Positions 4,839 to 43,050 of a DNA stretch of 64,000 nucleotides are shown here, piece after piece. Origin of the DNA: Isoetes taiwanensis (Eukaryota; Streptophyta; Lycopodiopsida; Isoetales; Isoetaceae). Position 1 is the first letter of the stretch. The number at the start of each line of letters is the position of its first letter. The stretch is from positions 25,037,189 through 25,101,188 of the forward strand of contig JAJEKV010000001.1 of assembly GCA_021234155.1 (NCBI GenBank), written 5' to 3'. The notes below the pieces were generated by a model. That model was not told the DNA's origin and did no database searches. It saw only the letters and a program-made list of their open reading frames with translations. Made by a program: the position numbers and the translations under genes.

Positions 4839-4859
4839 GCCCCTTCGGGGGCTAAGAAC

Positions 4860-18641: not shown

Positions 18642-18646
18642 GGGGA

Positions 18647-18709
18647 ATTTCCCGCAAGATGTACGACGGGCCTCGTATATTTAGTGGAGTGTCACAATGG
18701 TATCAGAGC
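18647..18709 (+). mobile_element. End of outer LTR and its primer-binding site
   Basis: The LTR remnant ends GTGTCACA at 18,689-18,696. After one spacer base comes TGGTATCAGAGC at 18,698-18,709, a tRNA-iMet primer-binding site on the plus strand. The Copia therefore inserted about 50 bp from the 3' end of another element's 5' LTR. Confidence 0.75.
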
Positions 18710-21794: not shown

Positions 21795-22404
21795 AATGAA
21801 TCGGCTCACCTCTCACAAAGAATCCACATAGAGCTTCCCTTACTCCAAAATCTTGAAAGGTCTTGCCCACCTTGGAGCAAGCTTCTTACAATTGCCGATG
21901 CAAAGCTTCGCTTGCTTGATTATTTGAGCCAACTTTATCTCCCACAACAAACTCTCGAGGAGTTTTATGTCTATCTGCCAGATATTCTCGCACTTCTACC
22001 ACACACTACTGCATATCTGCCGTCGTCGTTGAGAAACTTCCATCTTGGACACTAGATTATGCCACATAACTGGGGTCAGTCATTGGTAACTGATCATGAA
22101 GGGAGACATATTCGATGACTCTTGCTTCGTATTATTGTACGTAACTCGACTAGGTGGATGTAATCGGCCCATTTGGATTGCTTGTTCCAATATAGTTTCT
22201 CAACATATCCTCCAAGATTCTATTGGTGCGCTCCATTTGTCCATCTGACCGTGGATAAATAAGCAGAACTTCTCCACAACTTGGTGCAGATCGTATTGAA
22301 GAAGTCTTGCTAAAAGGCGTTGAAGACTTCAGATCTTTATAGGTGATGATCGACTTGGGCATTCCATGCAACCTAGAAAAAAATCTCTTATGTAGACAAT
22401 AAGG
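21795..22404 (-). pseudogene. Gypsy integrase C-terminal half
   Basis: The minus strand reads RLHGMPKSII, then DGQMERTNRILEDMLRNYIG, the usual DGQTER...EDMLR segment. Further on come remains of the HLVEFAYNNSKHSS block, a segment with VGDKV, and the KLAPRWARPFKILE-type C-terminal domain. Frameshifts and stops are frequent. The upstream half of the same reading lies at 41,439 and beyond, so this gene was split by the 22,409-41,434 insertion. Confidence 0.88.
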
Positions 22405-22408
22405 CTAG

Positions 22409-22442
22409 AACAAGGTGACGGTGCAAACGCACTAATGACCTG
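22409..22442 (+). repeat. Left terminal inverted repeat of the 19-kb element
   Basis: Matches the inverse of 41,401-41,434 at 33 of 34 positions; the first 31 are identical. It contains CACTAATGAC internally. Confidence 0.88.
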
Positions 22443-22637
22443 TGGTGTAATTGCATATTCCTTTTTCAAAAAAACGTAAATTCGGTATTTTTTTACCTTT
22501 TTTAAAGTAAACGGACACCAAAAAAAAAAATCTCAGTCCAAAAAGTACACATTTAACAGAGGACGACGTTGTTTTCTCTAAGTCAAACTAAAGAACAGTA
22601 CTTTTTTAAAACATTAAAATGCAAGGGAAAAGAAAAA

Positions 22638-22657
22638 TGTCTATGCGCGCATAGACA
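22638..22657. repeat. 20-bp perfect palindrome near left end
   Basis: TGTCTATGCGCGCATAGACA, about 230 bp from the left terminus. It is the same motif as the cluster at 24,506-25,126. Confidence 0.85.
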
Positions 22658-22679
22658 TGACAGTATCAATTCAATTAAT

Positions 22680-23165
22680 ATAGATAGATAGATAGATAGA
22701 TACATTATTGTCCCTTGTGCCCTGAGGCCCGTGGACTTATGTAGCATGAGCGAGCTCCCTGATGGGTGCTACTAGCACATCACGCTGGTACATTGTAGCC
22801 TTTTCTGAAGGCTTTTCTTGGTTTCTATTAGTACCAGCACCCCGCTTATATCTAGCTTCGTGGCCATGCGAGAATGCTTCGCTATCAACAGCTTTGAGCC
22901 GTACACATTGTGGATTCCACTGTCCCACCTTTAATAGTGGGTTAGATTATGAACCCTTAGTTTTTGGTGCACCAGAACTCGAATGTGGAAATAGAACACC
23001 AGCCGGCAGGTTGAACCCGCTCTATCCTGGTGGTCGGTCGGAGGCTTCTCACTGTCCCGACACTTAGTTCCTTTCCTTTTTTACAATTATTCTGCATGTT
23101 CTTGGTGCCCAATAGTGGTGCCCAGCGGCAACAGAGTTGCACTGACCTGGACTACATTAGTGACG
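22680..23165. other. Microsatellite and unassigned sequence
   Basis: A (TAGA)n tract lies at about 22,680-22,702. The following open stretches (22,762-23,067) show no domain. No gene supported. Confidence 0.4.
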
Positions 23166-23245
23166 CCGATTACTATCAGGATTAAAAAACCCCGCCCCGA
23201 AGGGTTTTCGGGGAAAAACCTTAATAGTAATGGGCTCGCTAATGC
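23166..23245 (-). mobile_element. LINE 3' untranslated fragment
   Basis: On the minus strand it reads TTTTTCCCCGAAAACCCTTC then GGGGCGGGGTTTTTTAATCC and TAGTAAT. This matches 60,195-60,250 and resembles 15,715-15,750, the block just upstream of the LINE 3' terminus. The terminal GTGGACG block is not recognisable beyond it, so the copy is incomplete. Confidence 0.65.
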
Positions 23246-23249
23246 CCAA

Positions 23250-24500
23250 AATTATTCTCAGATCCTTTTCCCATCATTTTGGATTTGGATTTCCGATGCC
23301 TCATCCTTTTTCCATCTGATGGATTTTGGAATCCCATGCTGCCATTCATCATTATCTATCATTCTGGTGCAATATTCTGCCCGCTTATCGTTATCCCCAT
23401 AGCCTGCTGCCGCTTGAACATCCATTCTTATAGCCTGCTGCCACCACCATCTCCTGCCTCCCCATTTCTACATTCTTGGATATGGAGTTTGCCCAGATTT
23501 GAAAGTCCTTAGCTGGACTCCCTTGACGCTCAGCAACTAGGGCCCCTGATAACCATCTCTTAAATACTCAAACCCCTGCCTTTGGTATCTATTATCTGAT
23601 CCAGACTCACAATATTCGTCCCTGGGCATCAAATTCCCTTCCGAGCATGACGATCTCATAGGTATCCCTGAATTGCCGCCCTGCCTATGGAATCAATGCT
23701 TGCTACGACTGCAACTCTGCCGGGATGCTTTGTAGAATGCCTTTGTTGCTGTGTTGAGATTGTCGGTAGAGCCTATTTCCTACACAAGTACTGCGAGTTA
23801 CCCTGTAGAGATCTGAAAACTAAAACTGAATGGGTTATACGAAATTACATTACAGAATAGGGAATTACAAAAAAATTTCGTGGGCTAAAATTTGTCTGTT
23901 GTTCCTGCGTTACATCTCTATTGTGCATATATTGTGCATAAACAACGAAGATGGGCGATGCAACCCAATCCACAACTGCCTTCAAGTCCAGAACATCGGA
24001 ATCATGTACAAAATCGAAAAAAAAACCCCAAAAACCTTACTGTCAAAGCGTGAAGTTCAACAAAATCCCTTCTCAAAGCCAAAAGTGTTGTCTCAGATTT
24101 GTTCTCGGATTGTCCTGATTCATGATCTGCATACTGTGTCAACGGGATTTGTTCCTTCCTCAGATCTTGCCGCCTCCTTTATGCCGACTGCATAGGCGTC
24201 CCATGCTCTGATTGCCAGGTGTTGCAGCTAAACTATGCTTCAGCCTAGAATATATTCCCTGCGAGATCGAAAAAGCTGGCCCAGGCGAAAAATTCCACAA
24301 GATTAAGGCTTCGAGCTCTCAAGAAGAGCTATCGATTTAGCTAAAGATCACAGATGAATCACATAGAAACAGATGAATCACATAGAAACATATGGGAATA
24401 ATGGGTTATACATCAAGGGGACATTTTTTTGCAGGAACTTCTTCTTCAGTATCAGAATCGATGAGCGTGTATAGTGTTTGGTGTGTAAAGCATTTGAGTG
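23250..24500. other. Region without recognised gene
   Basis: There are only short open stretches (23,279-23,512; 23,830-24,195). None has a domain, signal or repeat that I can name. Confidence 0.35.
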
Positions 24501-24505
24501 TTTTT

Positions 24506-25126
24506 CTATGCGTGTATAGCATTTGCCTATGCGTGCATAGACAAGCACAATTTATATTCCTTTAAAAACCCTAGGCTTGTGAAATAACCATGAAAAAGAG
24601 TTTTCGATAAGTTTTTTTTTGCCTACAACAAGTAGATAATAAGTCCATATATACGACCATTATGCTGAGTAATGTGCTCATTCTAAGTACAAAGATTGTG
24701 TAATTTGAAATGTCCCAAAATGGGTAACACCATAACATGCTATAACCCGATGAACTTCCTCGCTTTCTGGAATATTTTTGTCCTCCTCAAGTTTTTAAAG
24801 GTCTTCAAGAATCTGCAATTGCACTTGTTTTTTAAAGCTTTCTTTGTCTATGCACAAGACAAAGTATTTTTCAAACATTTGTTTGTTTGTCCGTGTCTAT
24901 GCACAAAGGCTTTCTTTGTCTATGCACAAGATAAAGTATTTTTTAAACATTGTTTTGTTTGTCTGTGTCTATGCGCGCATAGACAAAGTTTTATTTGTTT
25001 CTATGCGCGCATAGACAAGAGTTATTTCATTTCTCGTGTCTATGTGCGCATAGGCAAAAGTTCTTTTGTTTGTGCTATGTGCGCATAGGCAATTGTTCTT
25101 TTGTTGTCCATCTCTATATGTGCATA
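24506..25126. repeat. Cluster of CTATGCGCGCATAG-type palindromes
   Basis: Seven near-copies: 24,506-24,519, 24,527-24,540, 24,969-24,982, 25,001-25,014, 25,040-25,053, 25,075-25,088 and 25,113-25,126. Two are perfect palindromes; one (24,966-24,985) extends to 20 bp. A tandem duplication with a unit of about 71 bp (24,834-24,975) carries degenerate half-sites (TCTATGCACAAGA). The spacing is irregular, 15-40 bp in the dense part. It lies within the 19-kb TIR element. Confidence 0.85.
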
Positions 25127-25129
25127 GCC

Positions 25130-26140
25130 ATCACATTCCCACTTATGCTAGGTTGTCTAGACTTGTTTAGTTATCACTTAAGTATACAAAACCTGTTGAT
25201 TCCCAAATTATAGACACCTGCAAGCAGTCAAGCATGATCCAATTGAAATTTAAAACGTAAATTAAGAACACATCTCAAGAACAACCTTGCTCATATGTGT
25301 ATGGGCCAACATGCAAAACGTTGCAAAAGGGCATGGAGAACATCGAGGCACTGGCAGAAATTAACCTCCCAAACAAAGTCTATAACCTGTAATTGGTGAT
25401 CCAATTGCTGAAATTCAACTGCTATATTTTTGTGAGAATTCATAAAAGATTATTAATTTCTATATTCCCTTACAAGTAAGATTCTAAAGCATAAATTAAT
25501 TGAACATGCTTCCAGAAAGAAGCAATTGTTCCAAAAACAGGGCAAGTATACATATCTGGCTCTAGAAATTGCTTGCAAAGAAAAGAAGTCACTCAAATTA
25601 TCTTAAAAATTTACCTCAAGTACTTGCAAAATCACCAAAATCCACCTGCAAAATCACCTTCCAAATCACCTTAAAACTCTATTTACAAAAGAGAAAGGAA
25701 CAAATTCATCTGCAAAATTGTCCCGTACATACTTTTCCATAAGATTTCAGAGTCGAAATTGCAAAATTTTCAAATCATACAGAAATCTTCTTACCTCTGC
25801 AAGTAAGACTGGAATGTGAACACGTTAAGCTTCATACAAAAATATAAAATCACGTTAGGTTAGAGAAAGACATAAATAACATGCAGAAATAATCATGCTG
25901 CACAAGCTTTGGTTGCAAGAGTTTTGATGCAAGATTGCGCCCTGCAAAGCATTTTCTCTCTATCTATATCTATCTATCTCTAGAACTGCTTTATTAATGG
26001 TGTGAAGCACTCAAAGCTTCCGAATAGATAGAAATGCTTCGAAATAGCCACAAATGTAAGCAGCCATAGCCCAAAAGGGGATCTCTAACACAGATTAGAA
26101 ACAGAAAGGACAAAGGAAAAATAAGAGGAAAAGAAGAAGT
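25130..26140. other. AT-rich non-coding stretch
   Basis: No open frame of interest on either strand. A short TATC microsatellite lies near 25,960-25,980. Confidence 0.45.
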
Positions 26141-26200
26141 TAAAGGCAGTAGAGGATTTGAACCTCCAAACCCACAGACCGATTCAACCTGCCATTGAAG
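26141..26200 (-). other. tRNA-like T-arm remnant
   Basis: On the minus strand GGAGGTTCAAATCCTCTACT resembles a tRNA T-arm with a TTCAAAT loop, with ACTGCC as a possible acceptor end. I cannot fold the D and anticodon arms from the bases upstream, so this is at most a tRNA fragment or the 3' half of a SINE head. Confidence 0.25.
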
Positions 26201-26384
26201 AAAACTTTAGTATTTTCTTATGTCTTCCTGTTATATTTTGTAACCTTCTTGTCCTAAAACTTCTGCAAATAATGTACCTATTTTCTAGTTTGTGTCAGTA
26301 ACGGCTCAACTTTCCTACATCCACCTTCCATATGCTTCTAATTCTTGCTTCCTACGAATGAACTGATAGATTTGGCAGTTTGAA

Positions 26385-26485
26385 AGAAGCTTGGCCGACC
26401 TGATAATGATCTTGGCGACCAGATATGACCTGATATGACTAGATATGACCTGATAATGATCTTGCCGACCTAATATGACCTGATA
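26385..26485. repeat. Short interspersed GATATGACCT repeat
   Basis: Variants of GATATGACCT and GATAATGATCTTG alternate several times between 26,395 and 26,485. Confidence 0.6.
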
Positions 26486-26672
26486 GGGTTTGAAAAACTT
26501 ACTGTTATAGCGCCAAATCCGTCTTGGGGTTGCAATCCAATGCAAAGATCTGCTGCATCTCGAACTCTGGTGCAAAACTCCGGCTGGGCTGCATCTCGAA
26601 CACAAAAACAGAAGCAGAAAGCCGAGTTTTAGACGAAAATGGCAAAAACATAGAAAAAAAAAAGTATCATTC

Positions 26673-26718
26673 CTATGCGCGCATAAGAAAACTTCAAACT
26701 TTGTCCATGCGCGCATGG
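26673..26718. repeat. Two further GCGCGC palindromes
   Basis: CTATGCGCGCATAA at 26,673-26,686 and CCATGCGCGCATGG at 26,705-26,718. The second is a perfect palindrome with the outer bases changed in a compensating way. Confidence 0.8.
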
Positions 26719-26940
26719 GCACTACCTACCAGAGTTTCTCCCCGACCTACTTATTTTTCCCCGAACCTGCTTGTTTCTATTCCGAAGCTACTTGTTTCTA
26801 TTCCGAACCTCTTCACGCGGACCATCCCTAAAACCATGCGACATATTATCTTTTGATATCCCTTTAGGATCCTGCTATATAGCATTTTGCAATTTTTAGC
26901 ACACCAGCCCTACCGGCCTACAGCCTTTCTTGCAATTCTA

Positions 26941-27459
26941 GCCTATCCACGTGTAATTTCCATGTCATCAAAATCTGATATGCCTTATTTTGCACCATCA
27001 GATCTTGGCTTTTGCAAATCTAAGGCCAGGAAAATTAGAAAATCTGCCAAAAATGGGCAGGGAGATGGAAACGGTCACGGAGTAACTTCCTTTTCTTTTT
27101 TTCAAGCCTCCTTTGAAGCTCTGCCGAAGAGCTTTCGGCGTGGCCCTAGCACATTGTGTTCTTCATCGCGCTTCATCGTGCTTGTGATTTGCTTTCTTCA
27201 CCGTGCTCGTGGTTTGCGTTATTGTTGTGGGAGTAGCTGTTTAGCTTTTCCTTCTGGATTGTCTCCAAGGACCGAGCCATTTTCTTGCTCACGGAGTTTT
27301 CTGCAGTGCATGCCAATTTCTTCAAGGAAAAAATGTAAAGGAAAAATTAAAAAAATAGAAAATGAATGCCGATTTCCAAACCCGCCACAGTTTCCTTCAG
27401 CATTTCTTCAGCTTTTTGCTTGGTTTCTTTCTGCTGGTAAGTGTGTTTATAGAGGATGA
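26941..27459 (+). other. Open frame, unknown, possibly captured 5' exon
   Basis: An open frame runs through this region. The first ATG that looks usable begins MSSKSDMPYFAPSDLGF, at about 26,960. Composition is Ser/Phe/Cys/Arg-rich, with a basic tail (SRKKCKGKIKK). No domain recognised. It could be a captured 5' exon or transit-peptide-like sequence, or chance. Confidence 0.2.
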
Positions 27460-27649
27460 GCACCTGATAAAGCTGACGGCAAATTGATTCATAAGGAGGA
27501 CTTTTTCGGAGTCATTCTCTTCCATCCGGTCACAAGGCATAGTTTCCATTCAGTTGGTTTGTGGCAAACATTGACTTGGTTCTCTTTGATCTTGTGGCCA
27601 TTTCTATCTTTGTGCTTCTGCAAATACTTATTGGCAGGTGCCTGGTGAT

Positions 27650-29550
27650 GAGTTAAAGTGGGTCTGAGTCATGCCGCTAAGCAAGACATGGTATCCATTG
27701 CGTCTCAACAAGGAATGGTTGTGCAAATTCCTTATGTCAACAAAAAGGTAACTGTTCTACTTGATCTGTTTCAAGACCAAAGATATTGATGAGATATTTT
27801 TCTTATTTACATGCGATAATACAGTTCCGGTCATTTGGGAGAGCAGCAAAAAGAGTCAAAGCCATGAAATTGAAAGATGGTAGTAAAGCTGACAGTTCCA
27901 AACAGGAGACCAGCTTGCTTCTTTGTTTGTTGTATTTTTGACAATCCCAGGTAACATACATACATCTGTGGTTGGATTTCCAATTTAACTTTCAGTTTGA
28001 GTTTATTCCTTTTGCCAAGTATATACAACATTCGTAATTAAGGAGGCCTTGGATTTAGAAACATTTTGGTTTATTTGACATGCTTACACAATGAATTTGA
28101 AAAATATGTACCTAACGACTTTTGTAGATCATTCATTGAGCTTTCCAATGCACGCTCATGCTTGAGAAACAGAGTTTGTGTGCTGAAGTTATGGCCCTCT
28201 TTCTACACTGCTGTAAAATTAGAACAGCAAATGCATTTTGCCATATTTGGGCCATTTATAGTAGGAATATGAAAATCGTGTGCCTAGCAATATTCTTAGG
28301 CCTTTTCTTGATCTTTTCAATGGATATTCTTGCTGCAAGGATAGAGCTTGCATTTGAAAGTTATGTTAAAATTCTTACGGCCAGCCAACAAGCTTCACAA
28401 AGGTTCAGTTGTTATTTGGAGTATATTGATGCCCAGTGTTCTCGTGGATCCATGGCGAGAAGCTGCATGTAAGACTTGGTTGTTTACCTTATTATGTCCA
28501 TGCTTCCCATGTTTTAGATGCAAATCTATTCCAGGTGTAAGAGATAATGTTATTTCTTTAAAACTTGAGAGCAATTAATTTTTTTCCGTTGTACGTATAG
28601 AGGGAAATAAGGGACATGGAAGATAGTTGCTTGCCTCGTCGTACTCTTAACACTGTTGTTACTGCATGGAGCTTTTTGAGCCACTGGGCACCTTCAACTG
28701 ATCACTCTACATCCAAGCATGCCGCAGCCATGCAGATCGGTGGCAGAGACACTGCTGCATTACATTTTCTCTGAAGTATGTCTTTTTGTCTTCGCTTATC
28801 TTTATTTCCAAACTTATGATGGTGAATTGGAGCAGAAATTTGATTGTGGGTAAAGATGAAGCTCTATTGTTGTTGAATACATGGCTCTTGCTAGATAAGA
28901 GTTGTGGGGCTCGCTGGAAAAGTCTCCAAGAAAGTGTGGCATTGGATATCGTTTGACTGTAAATACGAATCTGTTATGGATCATTAGTGCACTTAACAAA
29001 AGATTTGGCTCAACTCATAGAATGCTGCTCAACTCAAGGAAGTTGCAAAGCTCTTAATGCAGAGATGCAAGCATCTATTCTTTAAGCTTTATCATCTTGC
29101 TATGACAGTGCTGCAGAAGACAAAAATATCTCTTGTTGCATCTTCTGGTTTTTTCTGAGATTGGGTATTGTCATCCAATTACCAGGACCATTTTCGTGTA
29201 ATAGGTTACATCATGACCTTTACTTAGTTCTAAACGCTCCTTATCAAGGGGAAACAATCAATTCTTGTGTTGTCCCCTGCTATTCACATTTATGATATTT
29301 CTGTTTTACCTTTGGTGGCAATTCATTACAAGCACTCTGAGACTTGCAGAAGAAGCTTAAGCACAAACCTTTAGGATTCAAGAAGCCACTTTAGAGCTTT
29401 ATGGAAATCTTCACTTCTAAAATTCAGGATAGTGACACAGCCATGAGTAGAGTGTCCTTTCAAACAACTGATTCATGGAAAAGACTAACTTTAGCGCTCT
29501 GAGTCCCTCTAATGCACCTAAAGTGGTTTTTCAAGTACGTAGAACATCAT
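27650..29550 (+). pseudogene. Captured multi-exon gene fragment, unknown
   Basis: Coding-like blocks are separated by intron-like AT-rich stretches. AKQDMVSIASQQGMVVQIPY ends in VNKK before GTAACTG at about 27,750. NKLHKGSVVIWSILMPSVLV then DPWREAA precedes GTAAGA at about 28,472. After an ATAG acceptor at about 28,600 comes REIRDMEDSCLPRRTLNTVV, then TAWSFLSHWAP. AAQLKEVAKLLMQRCKHLFF lies at about 29,025-29,090. Order, strand and splice-like borders agree, so a piece of one host gene is likely. I do not recognise the protein family. Confidence 0.45.
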
Positions 29551-29559
29551 CTGCTTGCT

Positions 29560-31180
29560 TGTTGAATGTCATGATGTTTGGAGATGGCAAGCTAGATAGG
29601 GATGTGACTTCCCTAAAATTACACATCAAAATATCAACTGCATGAAAAGCATCTTTGCGGCATGATGTAATATCTGGTAGTTATATTTGTCCATGAACTT
29701 CCTTTTAACTTGAAACAAGGAGGTAATATTTAAGTAAAAAAGTCTTTTACATTGGTTGTATAAGAAGTTTTGTGTTTATCGACCATGCATTCCTAGAAAT
29801 GTATTCGCCTTGATGCTAGTGGTAGATGCTTCTATAAATGTTTACATGCCTTTCAGTAACGTAATGGAATATATAGAGAGTATGCATGTATCTAGCAGTT
29901 AAAGGCAAGTTTTAAATATTTGGCCTTTATTGGACCCGAGGATTCCAAGTCTTTAAGTATGGAATTGTTGTTGCTTTGGAAGCCTTCAAGCAACAAAACA
30001 CAAGATGTAATGTTAGTTTTCATTATTTTAGTAGCACATGTGTTTGCTACTTTAGCACCATGAAAAAACTCATTTCACCATTTTTTTCACTTTTTTTAAG
30101 TTCTATTGGACAAGAATCTGCATTGTTTGATACAATAAATCTTGAGCAATTGATAAGCAACAACTTTAATTCTTGCGAGTGTCAAAGCTTAAAATAAAAT
30201 CAAATCAAAACCCCACAAAACCAAATCTACTTCCAAATAAACACAGGTTGAATGACATTAAGTCCATAAATGCCTAATCTATAACCTTTCTACTTTAATT
30301 AAAGCATATCTCGTCACACCTCCACCTCACCGAAATCTGAGATGCAACACCTCAACAAAATCCGAGGTGGTATAGTATAAACTGTAAGATTTTCAATTTT
30401 AAAATTCAATGGCAGTTTAATGACATCAACTTTGAATGAGGAATTCATGTGTTGATCTTGTAATATTATCCGTTCGGTGAAGACTATCTAAAGCTTCTTG
30501 CTATATAATTCATCTAACTTCCATGCTTAATACTGCAAGTTTTGTTACAAAACAATACACAAAGCTGGAAAATATCTTGGAATCATGTGCTTTGAGAGCA
30601 CAAATAAACATATGGGCTTCACTAAATTAGTCAAATAGTTTTGACAGAAGAATTTGGATAAGCCAACCCAATCATCTTATGTATACCTAACAATAGAGAA
30701 TCCTCACAACTGATGGCAGCTCAAGGAAGCAACCTAAACATAGTGTCCATAGGTCATGGAGGAATTGAACAACATGCCAATAGTCTAAAGTTGTAACCAT
30801 ATACCTTCAATGTACTATCAATGTTCTATTCTATTTGAGCATATTGTTTCTAGTCACAATTCATTTCATGTGTCATAGTTGCAAATGCTATTGTTTGATA
30901 AACAATCGAAACAAAACTCGAAACGTTCAATTAGGCACATGCCAAAAAGAACACAAATGTGCAGACGTGCAGACCAACGTGCAGACTTGCAGACCAAGCC
31001 AAACATGCAAACCAACTATGAAGAAGTATATAGGCCAAATGAGAAACTTAGGGCAAAGTACTATTTACCAACGCAAAATAAATCCAAACATCAAAAGCAC
31101 CAAGCCATCCAACATGTCTACAACAACCTCAACTCAACTCCTAGCAAGTCTAAGAAATACTGGTTCCTTTTGCGAAGGGA
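29560..31180. other. Unassigned, with GTGCAGAC minisatellite
   Basis: AT-rich, no supported gene. A short minisatellite of GTGCAGACC/TTGCAGACC variants lies at about 30,957-31,005. Confidence 0.4.
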
Positions 31181-31182
31181 AG

Positions 31183-31530
31183 TCAAAATAAAAACCTAAC
31201 AAGCCTTACCTTGCTAAAGCCTTCTGGTGTGCTTTTTGCTAGTTGTTTTTTTTTGTGTTTTTGGGTTGCCCCTAAGGGGGCAAGCCCTTGTTGAGGTGGG
31301 TTTATGGCATATGCTAGGTATATGCCAATATATACCCAGAATATGCCAATGACTGCTAAAAACACATCATAGGCTGTAAATGCTCGGTTGCCCCTGTTGC
31401 TGGAGAAGAACTGTGGAAACCGGGAAACCGGTGCTCGCTCCTTGCTCGAGGCTGCAGCATTAGTCGCCATGTCATCGTTGCCCCAGCGTTTTGCCGCATA
31501 TTCATACAGGGGGAAAGGCCGATCAGACAC
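31183..31530 (-). CDS. Small hypothetical membrane protein ORF
   Basis: An open frame on the minus strand reads MSDRPFPLYEYAAKRWGNDD, a Ser/Arg-rich stretch, then one hydrophobic segment, AYDVFLAVIGIFWVYIGIYL. A Pro/Lys-rich tail follows. One transmembrane helix is plausible. The frame is clean up to about 31,280, then turns low-complexity. I do not recognise the family. It sits between a minisatellite and the aspartokinase fragment inside the TIR element, so it may be another captured exon. Whether it is expressed cannot be judged. Confidence 0.35.
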   Translation of the reverse strand: MSDRPFPLYEYAAKRWGNDDMATNAAASSKERAPVSRFPQFFSSNRGNRAFTAYDVFLAVIGIFWVYIGIYLAYAINPPQQGLAPLGATQKHKKKQLAKSTPEGFSKVRLVRFLF

Positions 31531-31901
31531 ACAGATTATTGCCCTTCAGTTCAGCACTCAGTCAGCAGAAGAAGCTCCCTTATTTTTCCTTGATTCATCT
31601 TGCTTCCTGAATTATGGTCTCTCCGCAATGGCACTTGGTAACTTCTAACCCACATTGCAAGTTCCCCATTTGTCGACTTTTTTCGTAGCCATCATCGCCT
31701 TAGATTTCGTGGTGCCCATTAAAAATAGCGACTTGGGTATCGGAATATCTTTGAGCTCTAATGTTTTGATTAAGGATAGGCAAGGGCATGCGAAACTCGT
31801 GTGTGAGAAGTCTAAGGGATGTATCGAGAAATCAACGTGCTAGAAACGAGCAGTTGGAAACACAACCGGGGAAGTACCTAACCTTCAACGAGGAGCTAAC
31901 T

Positions 31902-34502
31902 TGTGTCATGAAGTTTGGTGGCTCGTCTCTCGCATCCGTGGCGGAGAATGAAAGAGGTGGCTAATTTGATTTCCAGCTTTCCAAATGAGAGGCTGTGATT
32001 GTATTATCGGCTATGGGAAAGGCGACTAACAATCTTCTCAAGGTAAATAAGCATCTTATATCGTACCAAGCTTAACCCGTTATATGAAATGATGATATGG
32101 ACCTACATTTTGTTTCTTGAGTTTGCAAGCATTTGTACATCGCTTGTCAACATGACATCTTTGCACTCGATTTAGCCTGAGATTATCTATTTCTAGAGAT
32201 GAATAACAAGACCATTCTACCTATTTCATGGGCTGGAGCTACTACAATTAATTGTGGAGTTGGGAATTCCTGTACAATTGTTGTGAAGGATCTACACTTC
32301 ACGGTATTTACTTTGCTTGATGAGTTTTATCATCACGCTCATGTTGCCCGACATGTTGCCTTGTTGATATTGTTTGCTTAATCAATCTGCGATCTTGTAG
32401 GCGAGCTTGGGATTAGTGTCAATGTAATTTCGGGTAAGTTCCATGGTTTAAAGTTTACGAACATCCTAAGCTGCTTCAGAAGTTTTTGGTCCAACACAAT
32501 CTGTATAGGTCTCATTGAAGAGTTGGAAGGGCTTCTTAAAGGCATTTCTTTGATGAAAGAGTTAACAAACCGCACAAAGGATTATCTTGTTTCTTTTGGT
32601 GGCGAATGTCTTCAAGAATTTTTGCGGCGTTTTGAACAAGCTTGGGTTTGAAGTCAAAGCGGTCTTTAATCTAAATGCATAGAAACGTTATGATTATAAA
32701 TGTCTTTGTGACTCCTTTGGAAGGCTTTTAGTATGATGCACCGGATATAGGATTTGTTACCACGGATGATTTTATGAATGCCGATATCCTCGAAGATGCT
32801 TACCCAACCTTAGCAAAGGCATTACTTGATAACCGGAATAATGAACCCGCAATTCCTATAATCACTGGATTCCTTGGGAAGGTATTATTTATCGAGAGTG
32901 TCGAGAAAAAGTTATATGTAACTCAAATAGCTTTACTTGGTCCCATAGGGAAAGAACACAGTGCAATAACCACCCTAGGCGGAGGTGGAAAGTGATTTAA
33001 CCGCAAGCGCTTTAGGGAGAGCTCTTGGGCTAAGGGAAATCCGGGTAAGTTCCTAATGTGGCTGCTCAATGCTTTCATCCCACTAGGCTTCTGGACTAAA
33101 AAGCTTTACCTTTTAGGTCTGGAAAGATGTAGATGGCGTGCTTACACGTGATCCAAATATACATTCAAATGCATTGCCCGGTGCCATTTCTAACTTTTGA
33201 TGAAGGCTGCGGAACTTGCATACTTGATTGCTTTCGGATACAAGCATATACTTTTTCTCTCTACATATTCAGTTTTTTTTCTTCTTTTTCTTTTTAAGTT
33301 AATTAAACTGGTCAATAGGTTTTGCACCGCAATCAATGAGGCCAGCAAAGAGGGCAAATATCCCCTGTCAGGTGTCAAGAATTCTTACAAAACCCTTGCA
33401 GCTAGGATACTTATAACAAAAACAAGAGACTTGAGCAAGGTTTGTTTTCCGCGAGAATGGTACCAATCCACATACTTTCGGATGCCTTATTTTGGGTAAA
33501 ATCATGCGGTCACTTCTTACAAGCATTGTACTCAAGTCCAACGTGACACTGTTGGATATTGTAAGCACCGCATGTTGGGGCATTACGGATTTCTTGCAAA
33601 GGTATGGTCCGTTTGGCTTGCGTTATCTTATTCATCTACTTAGGAAAGAAAAAGCAGAATGGCAATCTGAAAAAGACAATAAAGGCTTATGTTTATGGCC
33701 AGTAATGATTGCACATGCTTAGTTAGCGTTGTGATGACAATGACAGCAAGAAGTGTAAAAGAAAATTATGTCAAATGCTAGATGGTAAACATGGGAGAAT
33801 GCTATTAAATGCAGAAATACATGGTCTTCTGGCTAACTATTCTCAAATGCATGACAGTTGCACAAATTGTTCTTAAAAAATGTCTAAAATCTGCTTTATG
33901 TTTTCCAGGTTTTTCAAGTGTTTCAGGAGTTTGGTATATTTGTTGATGTTGTTGCAACAAGCGAAGTCAGCATCTCATTGACTCTCGATCCAATCAAAAC
34001 TTGGGACAGAGAGTTTGTTCATCTTGTTAGCAATAATTTAAGTGTTCTCTTTTGGTGTTGTTTGGAACTTCTATAACATGTAAGTGTGGTTGCAGGAATT
34101 GGATGCAACCACACTTGCACTTGTAAGTAGAAAAGCTCAAGGAGTTTGCACTTGTTAGAGTACTAGAGGGGAGATCAATTATTTCTTTGATAGGGAATGT
34201 CCAAAGATCTTCCTTCATTCTGGAGAAGGTACATCCTTATTATTGTTTGTTACTTGTATGTTATTTGTATGATATAGCAAATTTTGCTTATCTCAAAGTT
34301 TTAAGGTTTTCAAGGCCTCGAGGGGTTAATGTGCAAATGATCTCACAAGGTGTTTCAAAGGTTAGTTACCCCCAGTATTTTTGGTATCTATATCATTTTA
34401 AGTAGTATATGAGCTCCCTTATTACAGGTCAATATATCTTGTGTTGTAAATGATGACGAGGCCAAGCAATGTGTCGAGGAAGTTGCACAATTGAATTTTT
34501 GA
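31902..34502 (+). pseudogene. Aspartokinase gene fragment with introns
   Basis: Blocks appear in the order of plant monofunctional aspartokinase (first enzyme of the Lys/Thr/Met pathway, normally plastid). They are MKFGGSSLASV (31,908), VLSAMGKATNNLLK before GTAAAT (32,043), a segment with LVSFG (32,505-32,600), NADILEDAYPTLAKAL and AIPIITGFLGK (32,776-32,881), DLTASALGRALGLREI (about 33,000), VWKDVDGVLTRDPNI (33,120), VTLLDIVSTACWG (about 33,543), DVVATSEVSISLTLDP (about 33,940), SLIGNVQRSSFILEK and VNVQMISQGVSK of the ACT region, then NISCVVNDDEAKQCVEE. Introns are retained. Frameshifts and stops, such as one just after 31,940, show it is broken. The transit-peptide exon was not found. Confidence 0.88.
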
Positions 34503-34509
34503 AAAGGAG

Positions 34510-36030
34510 ACGAGTACTTAGTGGTAGAATCTTGCGGGGCACTAGTGACTACAGTGGGTTATACCGATTATTTCCCCAAAATGGGCAATCAAATCTTTAT
34601 CCATTTTGCTATCTTTGGGCGCTTAAGTGAGGCTCAGATATTCTCAATTTATTATATACGAGGAAGATATTATTCCACATAACCGGGGTAAAATGATGGT
34701 AAAATGATGTTCTGGCTCCATTATTTAAGTTGGTGGTTCACCACTTACATAAAAAAAAATGAATGGAATAAATTTTATTGGTCATTGCATTGTTTTAATT
34801 TCTAGTCCTTCAAGGGATCTTGACAGACCATCCGTTGGATGAAGTCCCATCGCTTTTACAACTACACGTTTGAAAAACATACATCAAGGTTCGTTGAAAT
34901 TTACAACTATACGAAACAAAATATTCAAGTTGTTCACAAGAGGCATAGTAATAGTATATGAATGCTATGGCGGGCATATTTTGATAGCCATCCATGTTAA
35001 GCCTTGCAATGGTCGATTTAAAATGTTCTTTTTGCATAATGCATTTGTGCATTTGTTAATCGGGGAAGACAACAAACCATGTAGTGTGGAAGACAACAAA
35101 CCATACAAACCATATAGTGTGAAGCATTAGAAACTAAGGCTAGCTATCAGATTTGGAGGGCAATATCTCATTTGCCATAGTAAGATGCTACATAGTCTTA
35201 GGCAAAAAGACATTCTTGAAGAATGCTGCAGTTTTCAAAGGCAAAAAGACATTCTTGAACAGTGGTGCAGTTATAGAAGGAGTTCCATTGCCAGTTTCTC
35301 AACACTCTAGATCACCCCAATAGACTGCTATGGCTAAGTATAGACTGAAATTTTATCTAAGAAAAGCTTATATTGCATTCCTTATTGTTCACAAGTATAT
35401 TTTTGCTTAGATCGTCGCTCTTACTGCCTTCGTTCCATGCATTACTTCCATAAGGGTAGGTGTGACAGACAAAAATGTAGCAAGTACAGAACAGAAAATT
35501 GTAAATAGCATTAAAGTTGTCACAATAGTCTTTGTTTTCCAAACAATTGGAATGAATTGTTCCATAGCCCAGAGGAAAACCAACTGCTTGGTTTCCTGAG
35601 CAGAATTAAAGGATCGGTTCCCATGGATTTTTAAAGGTCTGTTTTAGAGTAAATAGCCATGGTTGAGGACCATTGTATGGAATCACCTCTGTATATTTTG
35701 TTATGTGTCTTCACTAGGCTGCATAACAAGCAGGTGTCACGTGGATCTTGGATGGCCATGAACTTATGTCATTGTCCTCATATTGGATGTGATATGATCA
35801 GTAACAACATTCTCTGCTGGCATGTTGTTTTAATAGTGGATGTGGTAATGTTGATTATTAACATTGCTATCAGACATTAAGGAAATTTCATGCTGCAAAT
35901 AGCTACTTGCTTTGAGTTCAAAATATATGGTCTGCAATAGTCTTGGCTCTTGCCCTCTCCTAGCCTCAATGACATCTGGCTTAGAATGGCCAAATATTTT
36001 CTCAACAACTAGATTATAATTCCATCTAGA
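34510..36030. other. Spacer between captured gene pieces
   Basis: No recognised gene. The 35,060-35,130 stretch has short repeats of the GACAACAAACCAT type, and 35,190-35,280 repeats GGCAAAAAGACATTCTTGAA. Nothing else stands out. Confidence 0.4.
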
Positions 36031-36039
36031 GGAGGTTTG

Positions 36040-36561
36040 CTTTGAAGATGTGCACAAAGTGTTCAACCAAATGCAGGAAAGGAATATTATATCATGTTCA
36101 ACCATGATTGCAGCACATATAGAGCATGGTTATGGAAAAGAGGCATTTGGCATTTATCAACAAATGCAGTTAGCAAAGGAGAGTCCAAACACCATTATCT
36201 ACATAGTTCTTCTCAACGGTTGTGCCGACTTTAGTTTTTTAACGAAGGCAAATTAATTCATGCACATGCTATATAGTATGGGTTTGAATCAGCAACTATC
36301 GTTGGGAATGCCCTCATCAATATGCATGGGAAGACTGATAATCTGAATGATGCATCTGAGATTTTCAACCGGATGGATGAGAAAGATGTCATATCTTGGA
36401 ATACAATTGTTGCAACGTATTCCCATTATGGTTTTTTCAAAGAGGCCCACTATCTTTTTCAACAGACGCAGTTGCATGGCTTCAAACCAGATGAGGCCAT
36501 GTTCATCAGCATTCTAAATGCATGCACTACCAGAGCTTCAATGAAAGCTGCAAGAGTTTAA
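36040..36561 (+). pseudogene. PPR gene fragment (PLS type)
   Basis: Reads VHKVFNQMQERNIISCSTMI then AAHIEHGYGKEAFGIYQQMQ. After a frame change at about 36,250 it continues FESATIVGNALINMHGK, FNRMDEKDVISWNTIVATYS and FKPDEAMFISILNACTT. These are about four PPR motifs of the organelle-RNA-binding PLS subfamily. The repeat lengths and motif order match the intact gene at 47,019, but the sequence is clearly a different paralogue. It ends abruptly at 36,561 and joins receptor-kinase sequence within a few bases. Confidence 0.85.
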
Positions 36562-37130
36562 GTTATGCATCTTTCACTGGTCTGTGTAGTACTGTTGTTG
36601 GATTGGGTTGCTGTAGGCCTATTCTTTTGGTGGATTCAAAAGTAATTTTGGGAATTGTTGTTGGAAGTATAGTTGCCATCTTTTGTCTCATATTTGTGGT
36701 GATCAGATTTAGGATGGTCTTGAAGCAAGAGAGCATGTCTCTTTTGGCAGAACAAAAGGCCAACCTAAATGCCCTGCCTGATTCTAGCCTCTCCATCAAC
36801 AACACTGACAAATTCAAGGAACCCTTGAGCATCAACATTGCTACCTTTGAAATCCCTTTCTCTAGGCTCACATTTGCAGATATTCTTTTGGCCAATTTCT
36901 GTAAAACCAACATCATTGGAGATGGAGGATTTGAAACTGTTTATAAAGCAATTCCTCCTGATTCGTGCACAGTTGTTGTGAAGAAGCTTAGCTAGGCTAA
37001 AAATCAAGGTAACATGGAGTTCCTTGCAGAGATGCAAACTCTTGGTAAAGTTAAGCACATAAACGTTCTCTCCCTTTTTGGGTATTACTCCCTGGCAGAT
37101 GAAAAGTTTCTATTTTATGAATGGCAGAGG
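36562..37130 (+). pseudogene. LRR receptor kinase fragment (EMS1-like)
   Basis: A transmembrane segment (VILGIVVGSIVAIFCLIFVV) is followed by a juxtamembrane EPLSINIATFEIPFSRLTFA and kinase subdomain I-III sequence. FCKTNIIGDGGFETVYKA has Glu where the glycine-rich loop normally has its third Gly, and VVVKKLS carries the ATP-binding Lys. After an in-frame TAG come FLAEMQTLGKVKHINVLSLF and GYYSLADEKFLFYEW. This resembles EMS1/EXS-type leucine-rich-repeat kinases of the plant plasma membrane. Extracellular repeats and the rest of the kinase are absent. Confidence 0.85.
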
Positions 37131-37139
37131 AAGTGGATA

Positions 37140-38150
37140 AGAAGGTAATCTATAAATATCTTAATTCCATGTTGTACTAGGAAATTCTAGTCGTGCTGTT
37201 ATCAATAAGTCCATTCATCTCCATTTATACTTTCTTAAGACGCTTCTGCCAACAAATTCGTTTTGCAGCAAAACCTACTTTTTAGCAACTCAAAGATTAT
37301 CAGGCCCTTTGATTTTATTGGTGTTTTGTTCCGCGGTTGACATCAATACATCTGGTAAATGGACATCTTTGCGGTGATCTAGGGAAATATGTCTCAGCAT
37401 TGCTTCTGTCTCTATCGTTGGTGCTGCATTTTGTACCATATATGAATGTTCCATCCAAAATTGACCTGGTTAAAGCTATGGAAAACTAGGTGATTTTTAT
37501 GTTCTACATCTTTAAACTAATGATATATCCTTGCTCTATGGTGTTGTTAGACTACGTGTTTGGACAATGTCCTTATTGCTTTATGATTTTTTGTTTATTA
37601 AAATACATTTTTTTTGTAGAAGGCTAGCATAAGAGTAATCTCGATAATTATAGGATATAGAGCTAGGTGCAATTTGATAGGTTCGAGATTTTACTTTAAT
37701 TGCGTAAATGGTATCTAACCTTAAATGGACAATGAAAGCAGTTGTAATGTCGTACAAATTCTAGCTCCTATTTCTATGTGGTTGTATTTGCAGCATACAA
37801 CTTGGAGTTCTACATGGACATACAATGACTTACATTCTAGAAAATACAACTTGGAGTTCTACAAGGACATACACTGACTTACACTCTAGAAAATACAGGC
37901 CAGTGTATGAAGTTGCGAGTTAATATTTTTCCTTATCCAGGCTTACATTTAATATTATTGGCTTCATAGAACTTACAAAGAGTTATGCGGTTATTGAAGA
38001 CTATTCATTATTCTACTTTAACATGCTTACAAATTTAATTCGCAAGGGTATTGCATCATTCCCTCTAACTATAAGCTAGAGATTGTGCAAGTGATTACAT
38101 CTTAAACTTAAGCTACTGGAATCCAACAACACATCTAGGCTATAAGTTAT
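37140..38150. repeat. Spacer with a 53-bp tandem duplication
   Basis: At about 37,797-37,898 the unit ACAACTTGGAGTTCTACA..., through TCTAGAAAATAC, occurs twice with a few changes. The rest is AT-rich without a gene. Confidence 0.6.
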
Positions 38151-38151
38151 G

Positions 38152-38640
38152 ACAACCAACACATAACTAGCATTAACATTAATTAACACAAACTATTGGG
38201 TCCAACACATTTAAATTAAAATCCCCCTTAAACCCCCTTTGGTTTGGGTGCATATTCACACGGGGGGTGACTCCGGGCAACGAGAGCTGTTGGATAGGCA
38301 TATTCACCCCTTATTCCTTAATCTACACCGTATACAAAGTTCCTCGTTTGTGGGGTATGGATGTATAGAATTTGTTATACTGTATAACAAGATTTGCAAA
38401 ATACTATAAGATTTCAGGCAATATACTATATGGTGTTGATTTTGTACGTGCAAAACATAATTATAGGGGCTCTCGCTGCCCTACGTCACCCCCGTGTGAA
38501 TATGCACCCAAACCAAAGGGGGTTTAAGGGGGATTTTAATTTAAATGTGTTGGACCCAATAGTTTGTGTTAATTAATGTTAATGCTAGTTATGTGTTGGT
38601 TGTTATACTAAAAAATTTTGGGCCTTCGGCCCTAACAAAA
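38152..38640. mobile_element. MITE-like foldback element, copy 2
   Basis: The core at 38,221-38,534 is nearly identical to 4,437-4,751. Its outer arms (38,152-38,220 and 38,535-38,603; ACAACCAACACATAACTAGC and its inverse) share no evident sequence with the arms of copy 1. On the right a tail, AAAATTTTGGGCCTTCGGCC then CTAA, resembles the tail of copy 1. It lies inside the 19-kb TIR element. Confidence 0.78.
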
Positions 38641-38649
38641 AAGCAAACA

Positions 38650-40080
38650 TAGGTAAACTTTAAGGATCTATATATTAATTACTAAGAAGCTTGGATATTT
38701 TAGTTGAACACATGTATAAGAGGGCATGGTTCATGCTAGAACATGGATTAGTTTCAAGACGAACATGCAATTTGTGCGATATATAAAGATAGCAAGAATA
38801 TATTTAAGTTTGAGCCGAAAGTGTATGACAAAATATTGGTTAACATATCTTTTGAAAAGCCTCCAAATGTTCTCTATAGTCACACCTAGATCCGCAAATA
38901 CGTAACCTTCACTTTCTAATGTCCATGCATATGCATATGTTACCATCAAGGTCGGGGTAAAAAATGATGGACAAACCTCCCAACATGTGAATTATGACAT
39001 GGCATAACCGGATAGCAAGATTAAACTTTCATGGATAATCTCGAAAAGGAGAAAAAATAAAAAGGATCTACATGGCAAATGAAACCATTTGTGCGGATCC
39101 TATCCTCATCAAGCCCTCGGTCCGTTGGGAATCTTCAATAGTCTTTTGAGGATTCATCCACTAGGCGTAGCCCTGCTTATTGTAAAAATTATAGCATTTG
39201 GTTTAACACCATCATGTTGCATATCTAGAAGGGATCTGCATTGTAGGTCCAGGCTTCAACAAAATTTGAGCATATTCTCAGAACTATTGTCCCCAAGACA
39301 CTATACTTCTATTGGGCATTTTATCAAAGACATTCCAACAAAAATTGTATGCCTTTCTTAATCCCGCTCAGTCCGAGGCCTAATAGTGAAGCCGCATATC
39401 CATATAACTGAACTATCATAAAGAACTCCAAAAACACCCAGATATTCCAACACTTATTTCAAATGCGGTGATAACTAATTGTTGCGCTTTTGCTCTGGAT
39501 TCCGCTATTGTGAAAATGAGAAACAAAATTGTGTCCCTTCTTTAATCCTCTGTCTTGGGTCCGATGCCTCAAGTTCTTGCAATAGTTAACTTTTGCATAT
39601 CAATAATATATGTCAAAAAGAACTCCAAAGATATAGATTTGAACAAAGTTAAGGGCAATCTACCTCCATGCGAGTATCCTGGTTGAAATAACAAGACCTG
39701 CTCCCATCGAACACCTAAGAGACGAAGCAAAGTTGCTAATGTCAAAAGGCTTCCCGCCTTCTCTCTGTTAAACCAACAAGATTCCCTGACGGCCGATGAA
39801 TGTGTGACCATGGATATCATGATCACAAAGGAATTGAAATGGTAAATCAAAAGATAAAGTCTACAAAAGCAGTGATTGCAAGATCTCTCCCCAGAGCATC
39901 TCTTCCAATACCAATAGTATCCTGTTGTTCAGACTCTGCAATCTGGCGACTTCATCAGATTTTATAAAAATTTCAAAGTCCACCATTAAAACCGAGCTAC
40001 AGATGAAATTTGCAAAAGATCATGTGATTGGAATGCTAGAACATACTTCCACAAACTACGAAACATTCAAAGCATAAAGG
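38650..40080. other. Region with possible decayed exons, minus strand
   Basis: A minus-strand open stretch at 39,850-39,569 (GSLLTLATLLRLLGVRWEQV) and one at about 39,960-39,860 (ESEQQDTIGIGRDALGRDLA) look coding. They lie downstream of the methyltransferase-like exon at 40,090-40,421. They may be later exons of the same gene, but no methyltransferase motif confirms this. Confidence 0.3.
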
Positions 40081-40089
40081 GCATAAGCA

Positions 40090-40421
40090 TGATCTCACCA
40101 AAATTTGCTGCAAGTCTACAAACGGAACCAACATTGCCAGCATGTTGAGGACCAACCAGAACTATTCTAACACGGTCCAGAGCACCCGGCTCCAATTCAA
40201 GGCGTCATGTATTTTTTGTTCCATCATAGCCGGGGAAGGTTCTGCATAACTGTTTCCTTCGTTTCAGGCCTGCGGAGCCTCCGGATGGGCGGAAGTAGGC
40301 AAACCCATTTAGGGCGCAATGCAGGGCCATGCCCCCGACAAGAAAAGTGGGAAGTAAGGGAAGGCTCATGCAAACAGGAAGGTATGGCGCCATTATCGAT
40401 TCCACAAAAAAGGGCTTTCAT
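40090..40421 (-). pseudogene. SpoU/TrmJ-like RNA methyltransferase, first exon
   Basis: The minus strand reads a basic, Ser/Leu/Pro-rich leader (FRPSGGSAGLKRRKQLCR), then one TGA where Arg would fit. LELEPGALDRVRIVLVGPQH follows, then AGNVGSVCRLAANFG before a donor-like GTGAGA. The VLV.P.H.GNVG...R...NFG pattern is the first motif of SpoU-type 2'-O-methyltransferases, TrmJ branch. The leader could be an organelle transit peptide. Only this exon is clear. The in-frame TGA suggests a pseudogene. Confidence 0.65.
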
Positions 40422-40535
40422 TATAAGCCCTTCGATCTTTTTGGATTAAAAGAGGGCTTTTTTTTAAGCCCTCTGATCTTAACCATTGAGAGCATGAAAC
40501 AAAAATTGCACAAATTGCATGCAAAAACTTGGTGC

Positions 40536-40655
40536 ACTCTAGATATACTGATTAGTATGCCTCGTGCAATACGCCCATGAAATCATATGAAAACCATGCC
40601 AAAAAGCGTATAAAATCACAAAAAAAATCCCCTGTTATAATGCTACATATTTGAT
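40536..40655. repeat. Dispersed repeat D, copy 2
   Basis: Second copy of the 7,083-7,205 repeat, same orientation. Just upstream, 40,405-40,485 carries two short inverted pairs of the AAGGGCTTT...AAGCCCTT kind. Confidence 0.6.
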
Positions 40656-40659
40656 ACCA

Positions 40660-41391
40660 TTCTTACACCATATCAATGAAATTTCAAATTAGCACTGTTG
40701 GTCTTGGTCATCCACTGGTCCAAACTTAAAACATAGAAATTGCACTGCACCGCACCCCTGCATCAATGCTCATATATGGCTACGATCTCTAAAAAAAGAA
40801 TAATAAAAATCTCATGTCAGGAATCTCAAGTCATTAGCACCATGCTAGAAATAGGCTTGGTCCATGCACAATTCATAAACAAAGGAAAATAAAACAACAC
40901 AAAACAAAACCCTCCTTTCAAACCATTAATAATCCCAAACACATCAAATGACCCAACAAGAACCATGAAACAAAACGACAGCAAGAAACATGAAAACACA
41001 CTCTCGGGCCACTGAAGGGCAACCCTCCGTGCGCAGCACCTTGTTTATTTTTGTGCCTTGCCCATGCGCGCATAGCATGTGTGATGCTGCTTGAGCAATA
41101 AAAAATGCATACGGCTCCATTTTAATGTTTTTGTCTTTAAAATTTGTCAAGAATTTGCTGGTTGTTTCATTTTGCCACTTTTTAAACGTGTCCCGAAAGC
41201 AATTAAATTAGATTATTATTTTTCTGCCTAAAATGGGGATGTCAAATTAACAAGACGCCAACTTTTTGGTACTTTTGACTCCTAAAATAGCTACCAAATT
41301 CGTAAATTTAGGGTCATTTTTTTAATTGACCCCCTAAAAGTGGCTGAATTTAAGGGTATTTTAGGGAATCTTTGAAAGATGCTTTTTATTA
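40660..41391. other. Right subterminal region of the 19-kb element
   Basis: Non-coding. One palindromic site (CCATGCGCGCATAG, 41,062-41,075) lies about 360 bp from the right terminus. Near 41,240-41,360 the sequence is rich in AAAATGG and TTTAGGG-like words without regular repetition. Confidence 0.5.
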
Positions 41392-41434
41392 GTGCAAACG
41401 CAAGTCATTAGTGCGTTTGCACCGTCACCTTGTT
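41392..41434 (-). repeat. Right terminal inverted repeat with hairpin
   Basis: The last 34 bp are the inverse of the left terminus with one mismatch. In addition GTGCAAACGC (41,392-41,401) and GCGTTTGCAC (41,413-41,422) form a perfect 10-bp stem with an 11-base loop. The left end has only one of these arms. Confidence 0.85.
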
Positions 41435-41438
41435 CTAG

Positions 41439-43050
41439 ATCCAACGTTGTGTCTGTGGTGCGACATGGAAAGAATGTGCCCTTTTTGATAACTTATCTAC
41501 CACAACCATCAAGGCATTAAATCTCCTTGTTGTTCTTGAAAGGCCTGCTATGAAATACATGCTGATAATTTTCCACTTGGCGTTTGGCACCACCCAAGGT
41601 TCCCAAAACTCCTAGGATTCGAAGTTGTTTAGCCTTTGTCTGCTGACACAACTGTCGTTCTTGGATATACCTGACTATCTGCTTCTTCATGCCCGGCCAG
41701 AAGTAGCTACTTTTAATATTGAAGTAGGCCTTTATAAATCTTGCATGGCTGGTAATAGGGCTATTATGCGTGTCATAGAAGATTAACTTTCTTACTACTG
41801 ATACTTCAAGTACGCATAGTTGTTCTTGTGATATAAAAGATTGCCTTCCTTTTTAAAATGTCTGAAGGTTTCTCTTTCCTTGTCCTTCCTTGTGCTCTTC
41901 CAAAGACTAGTCCATATGTGCTTGAACTCCATGCTAGAGGAGATGGCTTCTTCTATCTTCTTGCCGAATTCGCTTGCCTAAGTGGAGATGGCATTGCAAA
42001 ATGATGCTTCAAAAGCTTGCCAATAAGTGGCGACGTCTTAGCATCTCCAAGGCTTTCCTCAAATGGACTACATGCTCCTCTATTGATTTGTTGTAGACCA
42101 CGATGTCATCGAAGAAAAAAAAATTAATGATGAACTCATCTAAGAAATCTTTGAAGATGACATTCCTCGAGCGTCTAAAGTCGCTGGAGCATTTGATACA
42201 CTCAAGGGTATTACTGTGAACTCATAGTGCCCATATCATGTTCTAAAGCGGTCTTATAATTATCTTCCCCCTTCATGCTTCATTGCCAGACCTTAAGTCA
42301 ATTTTGGAGAAGATTTTGCTCCTTGGAGCTGATCTATTACGTCACCTGCTTGTTGAGCTGCCAATGGTTGATATGCATCTTTCAACTTCCCTCTAGGCTA
42401 AAAGCATCCTCAAGTCGAGCAACTCGTACAACTGCATCTTGAGCTCTGCTAGCTCGGAAGTGCTCATTCTATAAAGAGCTTTGCTGGTTGGATCTGCATC
42501 TGGAGCAAGAGTGATTTCACACTCTACGTCTCTATAAAGCAAAAGCTCCTAAATTTTATCCAGAGATATATTGTGGGACTTTTTGATTAGCTTAGCAATT
42601 GGCCGAGGCAACTGTTTCGAAGGAGCATCTTCCTTCTTACTCTTCTTGTCAGGGTCGACGACTTGTAGCTTAGGTATGTACGACCTCATTCCTCGTGATG
42701 CACTTAAGTAGTTGCTTCGCTGAGATGCATTGCATGGCTGAAATTACTTCCTTAACTTTTATTATAAGGTGATTGCACTTTGGTGCTAGGATAAACATAT
42801 ATTGCTTATGATAGTCAATTATTGCCTTAGTCGTCTTCAATATTCCATGCCTATTATGAGTTCATACTTGCCAATGTACATAAGTTGGCGTTGACGCTCT
42901 ACTTTTCTCCGCTTAAGGTTGATGTCGAACTTGACTCTTGTTCCTTTGGTACTGCTAGTTGCTCAGCCTTGCCATACTTACTGGCCTAGATTTAGACTTA
43001 AGAGTCTTGCTCTTAAAGATGTCCGTCATCTAGGAGGTGCAAGGTTACAG
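41439..43050 (-). pseudogene. Gypsy pol, RT to integrase N-terminal half
   Basis: In minus-strand order: remains of the protease-RT junction near 43,000-42,400, then IDQLQGAK near 42,330. YGHYEFTV and VSNAPATF lead to DFLDEFIINFFFFDDIVVYN near 42,110, where FFDD replaces the usual FLDD/YLDD RT catalytic motif. Further on come EEHVVHLRKALEML, then SSYFWPGMKKQIVRYIQ with a degraded zinc site, then MVVVDKLSKRAHSF of the integrase core. The reading stops at 41,439 and resumes at 22,404. Many stops and frameshifts. Confidence 0.88.

Follow-up and report, generated by a model that had tools for sequence, protein, structure and literature searches.

Sola elements carry terminal inverted repeats (TIRs), make a 4-bp target duplication and range from 2 to 9 kb, according to the passages available from PMC10741241; their transposase is of the DDD type, and they have been reported in moss. 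For Helentrons and DINE-1-like elements, the available part of PMC4067079 describes subterminal inverted repeats, one lying closer to its end than the other, a small palindrome at the 3' side, a T-rich target and no target duplication. Pack-TYPE elements (Pack-MULE, Pack-CACTA) are non-autonomous and carry and multiply host gene fragments, as the excerpt of PMC8903248 has it. With these systems we compare a 19-kb interval, positions 22409-41434 of a 64,000-nucleotide stretch of contig JAJEKV010000001.1 (the window, to which all plain coordinates refer). A previous sequence-only reading had taken the interval for one DNA transposon well beyond the usual size of non-autonomous elements; we find that it is very probably a 3.1-kb non-autonomous cut-and-paste transposon in an old Gypsy copy, enlarged by nested insertions.

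The outer element, its insertion site and its family

The interval is delimited by TIRs at 22409-22442 (plus strand) and 41401-41434 (minus strand), which are inverted with one mismatch in 34 bp and are bordered by CTAG at 22405-22408 and 41435-41438 (no strand assigned); both the repeats and the flanking CTAG had been proposed from the letters alone, and both are confirmed. Together with CTAG the match extends over 38 bp at 97% identity, and about 9e-12 such inverted pairs are expected by chance (64 kb, window base composition, independent bases). The termini read AACAAGGTGAC...CACTAATGAC (AACAAGG...CCTTGTT). The alignment of the two ends stops at 34 bp, with only weak matches of 10-17 bp elsewhere in the end 1.5 kb. 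Within the right repeat lies an 11-bp arm with a perfect inverse copy just inward, an arrangement that is found in many other copies of the family. A CACTA reading was also considered: CACTA/TAGTG does occur within the ends, yet the surrounding sequences are inverted and not direct repeats, and this reading was discarded.

On either side of the interval lies a degraded Gypsy integrase on the minus strand, with its zinc-binding part and core start at 41439-41852 (Pfam Integrase_H2C2, E 1.1e-10) and the core continuation at 22200-22404, where the outer limit is approximate. VVVDKLSK and LHGMPKS share a frame when the flanks are joined with one CTAG, but not when the join lacks it; the claim that the integrase frame rejoins thus stands, whereas the 27-residue spacing given with it was not reproduced. 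Counted by eye, VVVD and LHG are 35 residues apart in the rejoined frame, compared to 34 in an intact Gypsy open reading frame near family copy L022 in the window's own genome. CTAG itself creates a TAG stop in the rejoined frame, and as the Gypsy copy contains further stops and frameshifts, it was probably already degraded at the time of insertion. The data support a single insertion here, by which a TIR DNA transposon with a AACAAGGTGAC start entered the Gypsy copy and duplicated one CTAG target.

We searched the window's own genome (1.66 Gb) with the left 196 bp as query and scored the best 40 of 481 candidates, the window's own place included; 30 of the 39 other places were fetched, and three of these extended. 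Both ends are in view in 23 of the 30 fetched copies (17 of 20 in a first batch and 6 of 10 in a second), at distances of 3,109-6,790 bp: 22 span 3,109-4,401 bp and one, L026, spans 6,790 bp. The sequence-only reading had named termini that are not paired at the window's distance in other copies as evidence against a single large transposon, and this is what we observe, as the ends pair at 3.1-6.8 kb in all 23 copies and at 19 kb in none. Nearly all copies begin with AACAAGGTGAC, and two subfamilies can be told apart by positions 12-14, which read GGT or CTA.

An exact 4-bp flanking duplication is present in 21 of the 23 copies, and its sequence is varied and mostly A+T-rich: TTTT, GAAT, TATA, TAGG, CTAG, CATT, TATT, CCAT, TTAA, TCAT, AAAA, AATG, ATAA, CAAA, CATA and CTAT in the first batch (16 of 17 copies), and ATAT, TTTT, ATAA, TTTA and ATTT in the second (5 of 6). 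The exceptions are L010, which fails as read, and L039, which by eye fits TAAT with a 2-bp shift. Since the duplications vary among copies, CTAG is merely one target, and the suggested family trait of a CTAG or TA duplication gives way to one of four base pairs of varied sequence, many without TA. With conserved inverted ends and a duplication of fixed length, the outer element is a member of a dispersed family of TIR cut-and-paste DNA transposons. The insertion is real and ordinary in kind, that of a TIR transposon family with a 4-bp duplication.

The paired copies also bear on an alternative raised in the sequence-only reading, in which two small inverted elements bracket host DNA. The ends do match over only 34 bp, in line with this idea, yet past this point the two ends differ in sequence, over ~270 bp on the left and up to ~390 bp on the right, and the rejoined integrase and the single duplication fit one event. 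One left and one right end occur together in 23 siblings, which leads us to reject the alternative; it is almost certainly wrong.

In the seven remaining fetched copies the right end was unreached or absent or, in L021, duplicated. The right end of L021 lies 14.1 kb away, TACA is present at both flanks, and the span contains a tandem duplication (L021/L030) with a unit of ~7.1 kb, 92.6% identical over 4.2 kb aligned, that holds an element end and LINE sequence; a transposase-like stretch is located between its two copies. The left end was also seen at four places on contig G000:C1025 (405104, 412964, 595820 and 603681), forming two pairs of nearly equal spacing, as if by segmental duplication.

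Inserted DNA and the size of the interval

Compared to its closest siblings, the window copy aligns in three blocks at element positions 1-273, 2004-4480 and 18633-19026, with inserts located at 273/2004 and 4480/18633. The backbone lies on the plus strand and comprises a left part at 22409-22681 (93-96% identity to the left ends of L009-L014), a middle part at 24412-26888 and a right part at 41047-41434 (94-97% over 390-394 bp to L010-L014). Once the inserts are removed, 3,144 bp remain of the window copy, and this backbone is 95-96% identical to L009, L011, L012 and L013, 88% to L014, 90% to L016 and 72% to L010, which contains additional V-like sequence (V is described below); its identity to the majority sequence of the eight is 97.7%. 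The excess of ~16 kb over the backbone is made up of a 1.7-kb insert 1, an element X of ~4.4 kb and an element U of 9.8 kb, the last with a 2.5-kb element V within it. In the genome searches with inserted DNA the best 40 candidates were scored each, and all copy counts given below are lower bounds.

Insert 1 (22682-24411, 1.73 kb, no strand assigned) is not present in siblings L009-L014, and a 58-bp part of it matches a LINE-type 3' end. Element X (26893-31253, plus strand, right edge approximate) begins TTTTTAGCACACCAG and has the inverse, CTGGTGTGCT, at 31224-31233. Among the matches listed, at least nine others begin at query position 194 and at least seven finish at 4545-4563, and at least two copies are continuous over 4.1 kb at 95-97% identity.

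Element U (31258-41045, plus strand, 7.3 kb when V is taken out) runs from TTTTTGGGTTGCCCC to GGGCAACCC followed by 20 nt, the last nine of which are CACCTTGTT. Its start reads TTTTT and then GGGTTGCCC, while the final 20 nt hold a small palindrome. All ten right ends that were fetched read CACCTTGTT and are followed by differing DNA, and all five fetched left ends read TTTTTGGGTTGC and adjoin differing DNA; in all four copies that show both ends, the 4 bp flanking the left end are not the same as those flanking the right. Among the matches listed on other contigs, the left edge is exact in four, within 8 bases in three and about 200 bp inside in two. For the right part, matches stop at query positions 6485-6498, within 13 bases of the right base, in at least 22 places elsewhere (best 40 of 10,196 candidates). 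Based on its CACCTTGTT end, U was also considered as a TIR element of the outer family; the different left ends rule this out.

Element V (38154-40645, no strand assigned) has a hairpin with 119-bp arms at its left side. Other U copies listed have positions 38153 and 40646 next to each other with hardly a gap and so lack V, and V is found without U elsewhere, in at least two places near full length, in at least two more from query position 3738-3743 to 6091, and in several partial copies. Another hairpin element in the window (4373-4867) is related to V, with 85% identity over 454 columns and hairpin arms.

As X, U and V recur as separate repeats elsewhere with edges of their own, the interval is a nest in which the outer element holds insert 1, X and U, with V inside U. 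The apparent size of 19 kb results from nested repeats that have copies elsewhere. A false giant transposon is thereby removed, and the case illustrates how insertions nested within an element can make its near-perfect ends and clean empty site misleading.

Element U, its host-gene cargo and the proposed history of the nest

Element U carries parts of three host genes on the plus strand. A degraded aspartokinase gene with introns occupies 31902-34511 (PDB 2cdq, E 9.4e-36); it is represented by seven pieces arranged in order across residues 29-487, of which five count as passing, with residues 164-218 covered by another frame and stops present. PPR gene fragments follow at 36086-36526 (Pfam PPR_2, E ~2.6e-07 and 2.7e-07 in two frames), and a BRI1-like receptor-kinase fragment at 36550-37281 (PDB 4oh4, E 9.9e-22) comprises a membrane segment, recognized by eye, and the start of the kinase. 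Among 56 matches listed, the aspartokinase part has at least 11 others longer than 1.7 kb, at 83-95% identity and with introns included; shorter U copies share the PPR and kinase part and have internal deletions. The introns retained in these copies argue for capture at the DNA level.

By their layout, which in both starts with a run of T, U and X look like Helitron-type elements, and more specifically like Helentrons. A canonical Helitron (5'-TC...CTRR-3', between A and T) does not describe U, which begins TTTTTGGG and ends CTTGTT. The Helentron or Helitron2-like layout does, with GGGTTGCCC at 5 nt and GGGCAACCC at 20 nt from the ends and no duplication, and X resembles U in its layout, with AGCACACCAG. 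Both elements share the unequally spaced subterminal inverted repeats and T-rich target described for DINE-1-like elements, and U also the small palindrome near the 3' end and the lack of a duplication (PMC4067079, available part). Differences remain: in U the 3' repeat is 20 nt from the end, compared to 38-60 among the mite families treated there, and the 5' one 5 nt, compared to 2-4; Pfam finds no Rep or helicase in the 19-kb interval, no genome search for one having been made.

A rival origin is one 19-kb Pack-type TIR transposon, mobile as a whole, in which the outer element took up host genes through gap repair. Such a transposon would account for the near-perfect ends, the single CTAG duplication and the host-gene pieces within, and the 6,790-bp sibling L026 does carry a PPR gene (E 3.6e-51, element positions ~2284-4860), which means that siblings can hold cargo. 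This gene, however, sits between stretches that match V's right and left parts, as if brought by a V-type insert, so host genes may be part of the cargo of V-type elements as well. In the window the cargo belongs to U, which lacks a layout of TIRs and 4-bp duplication, and consists of units with fixed termini and copies outside the outer element. With X, U and V copied independently elsewhere, gap-repair capture was dropped as the origin of the 14-kb insert, and the Pack-type unit is largely refuted and has a very slim chance of being correct; no second copy of the whole 19-kb unit was seen among the 30 of 481 candidates inspected.

For the nest, we propose the following course of events. The outer element would have moved by cut-and-paste with a transposase supplied in trans, and insert 1, X, U and V would have entered it later than (or ahead of) the jump that it made last. 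The probable entry site of X and U is a T-rich tract that the outer element has near its right end and that fits the T-rich targets of Helentron-like elements given in the available part of PMC4067079; V would have entered U, and the 1.7-kb piece the left part of the outer element. Most likely, U and X move by a rolling-circle, Helitron/Helentron-like process, in which U would have picked up the aspartokinase, PPR and receptor-kinase pieces that were then multiplied with it. A Helitron-like element that multiplies an intron-containing aspartokinase together with PPR and receptor-kinase pieces is of use for genome annotation.

Several points weigh against the nest as described. The order of insertion is inferred, and if the inserts were already aboard when the outer element made its latest move, the unit that moved would have measured up to 19 kb. 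No right end is found within ~18 kb in L018 and L022, or within 4.8 kb in L033, L034, L037 and L041, so that the family also has longer or truncated relatives. Insert 1 is called an insert on its absence from L009-L014, and the termini of X are read from match edges. As to U, its copies C13 and C1059 begin about 200 bp inside the left terminus, its empty site is blurred by T-runs of varying length, and its CACCTTGTT (41037-41045) shares all 9 of its bases with the outer right end (41426-41434).

Superfamily and the missing transposase

Judged by duplication length only, the outer family is compatible with Sola. The 4-bp duplication, the TIRs and the size of the outer element all resemble Sola as described in the passages from PMC10741241; among plant superfamilies it is Sola that the 4-bp duplication fits, and membership in it is putative. 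Ginger elements have a similar duplication of 4-6 bp (same passages), but differ in their 5'-TG...CA-3' termini, found neither in the window nor in the siblings, and in TIRs of 40-270 bp versus AACAAGG...CCTTGTT and 34 bp here. The TA duplication of Tc1/Mariner does not agree with duplications of 4 bp, many of which lack TA. The available portions of the literature on CTAG, Sola and lycophyte genomes contain no matching family, an exact search of viral contigs with the 21-bp terminus gave no match, and neither did Rfam.

That no transposase is visible, as noted earlier from the letters, is borne out by a six-frame Pfam search of the interval, which gave no transposase domain at E <= 0.01; a PDB search with one of the six frames of 22409-31920 returned no match. 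An autonomous relative of the outer family was not found, the cargo of most siblings being unscanned. A candidate, unproven as the transposase of the outer family, is a protein family encoded within a few kb of two outer-family copies (L013:6946-8790 and L030:4259-5020, the latter on the minus strand), for which a predicted model has a DDE integrase-like core. Its 28 homologues have invariant SDG and HGKGExDG motifs and are almost without Pfam matches: one search gave none and another scattered weak ones (best DUF6597 at 2.4e-4, below cut-off, in 3 of 27 members). A PDB sequence search gave none at E <= 1, and Foldseek with the model gave no convincing match, its single match at E <= 0.001 being NurA.

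If these proteins moved the outer family, its superfamily would be one not described for plants, a reading that we consider rather unlikely. Foldseek alone is weak, nearness to the elements may be chance, and the surroundings of the L013 copy showed neither AACAAGG ends nor any other clear terminal repeat. Since both stretches lie outside elements, the link to the outer family is a lead only; in L021 the stretch lies between two right ends, for which the 7.1-kb tandem duplication (92.6%) is the simplest cause. The idea that the open frame in L030 encodes the transposase within a relative of 14.1 kb was discarded, as the frame sits beyond the element's first right end. A broader proposal, in which the AACAAGG family is an undescribed plant superfamily moved by the DDE-fold proteins and its right terminus became common to U through end exchange, is very unlikely in our view. 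Irrespective of its mover, the family is a defined 4-bp-duplication transposon family in what appears to be a seedless plant (the relatives of a PPR open frame described below suggest a seedless vascular one), and can be used for annotating the source genome.

Outside the interval, the window contains direct repeats at 8143-8774 and 18009-18641, 97-99% identical and 9.87 kb apart around Copia-type open frames, which are probably the long terminal repeats of one element. A PPR open frame lies at 46962-48410; its listed relatives have 31-46% identity, the best being in Diphasiastrum and other vascular-plant sequences.

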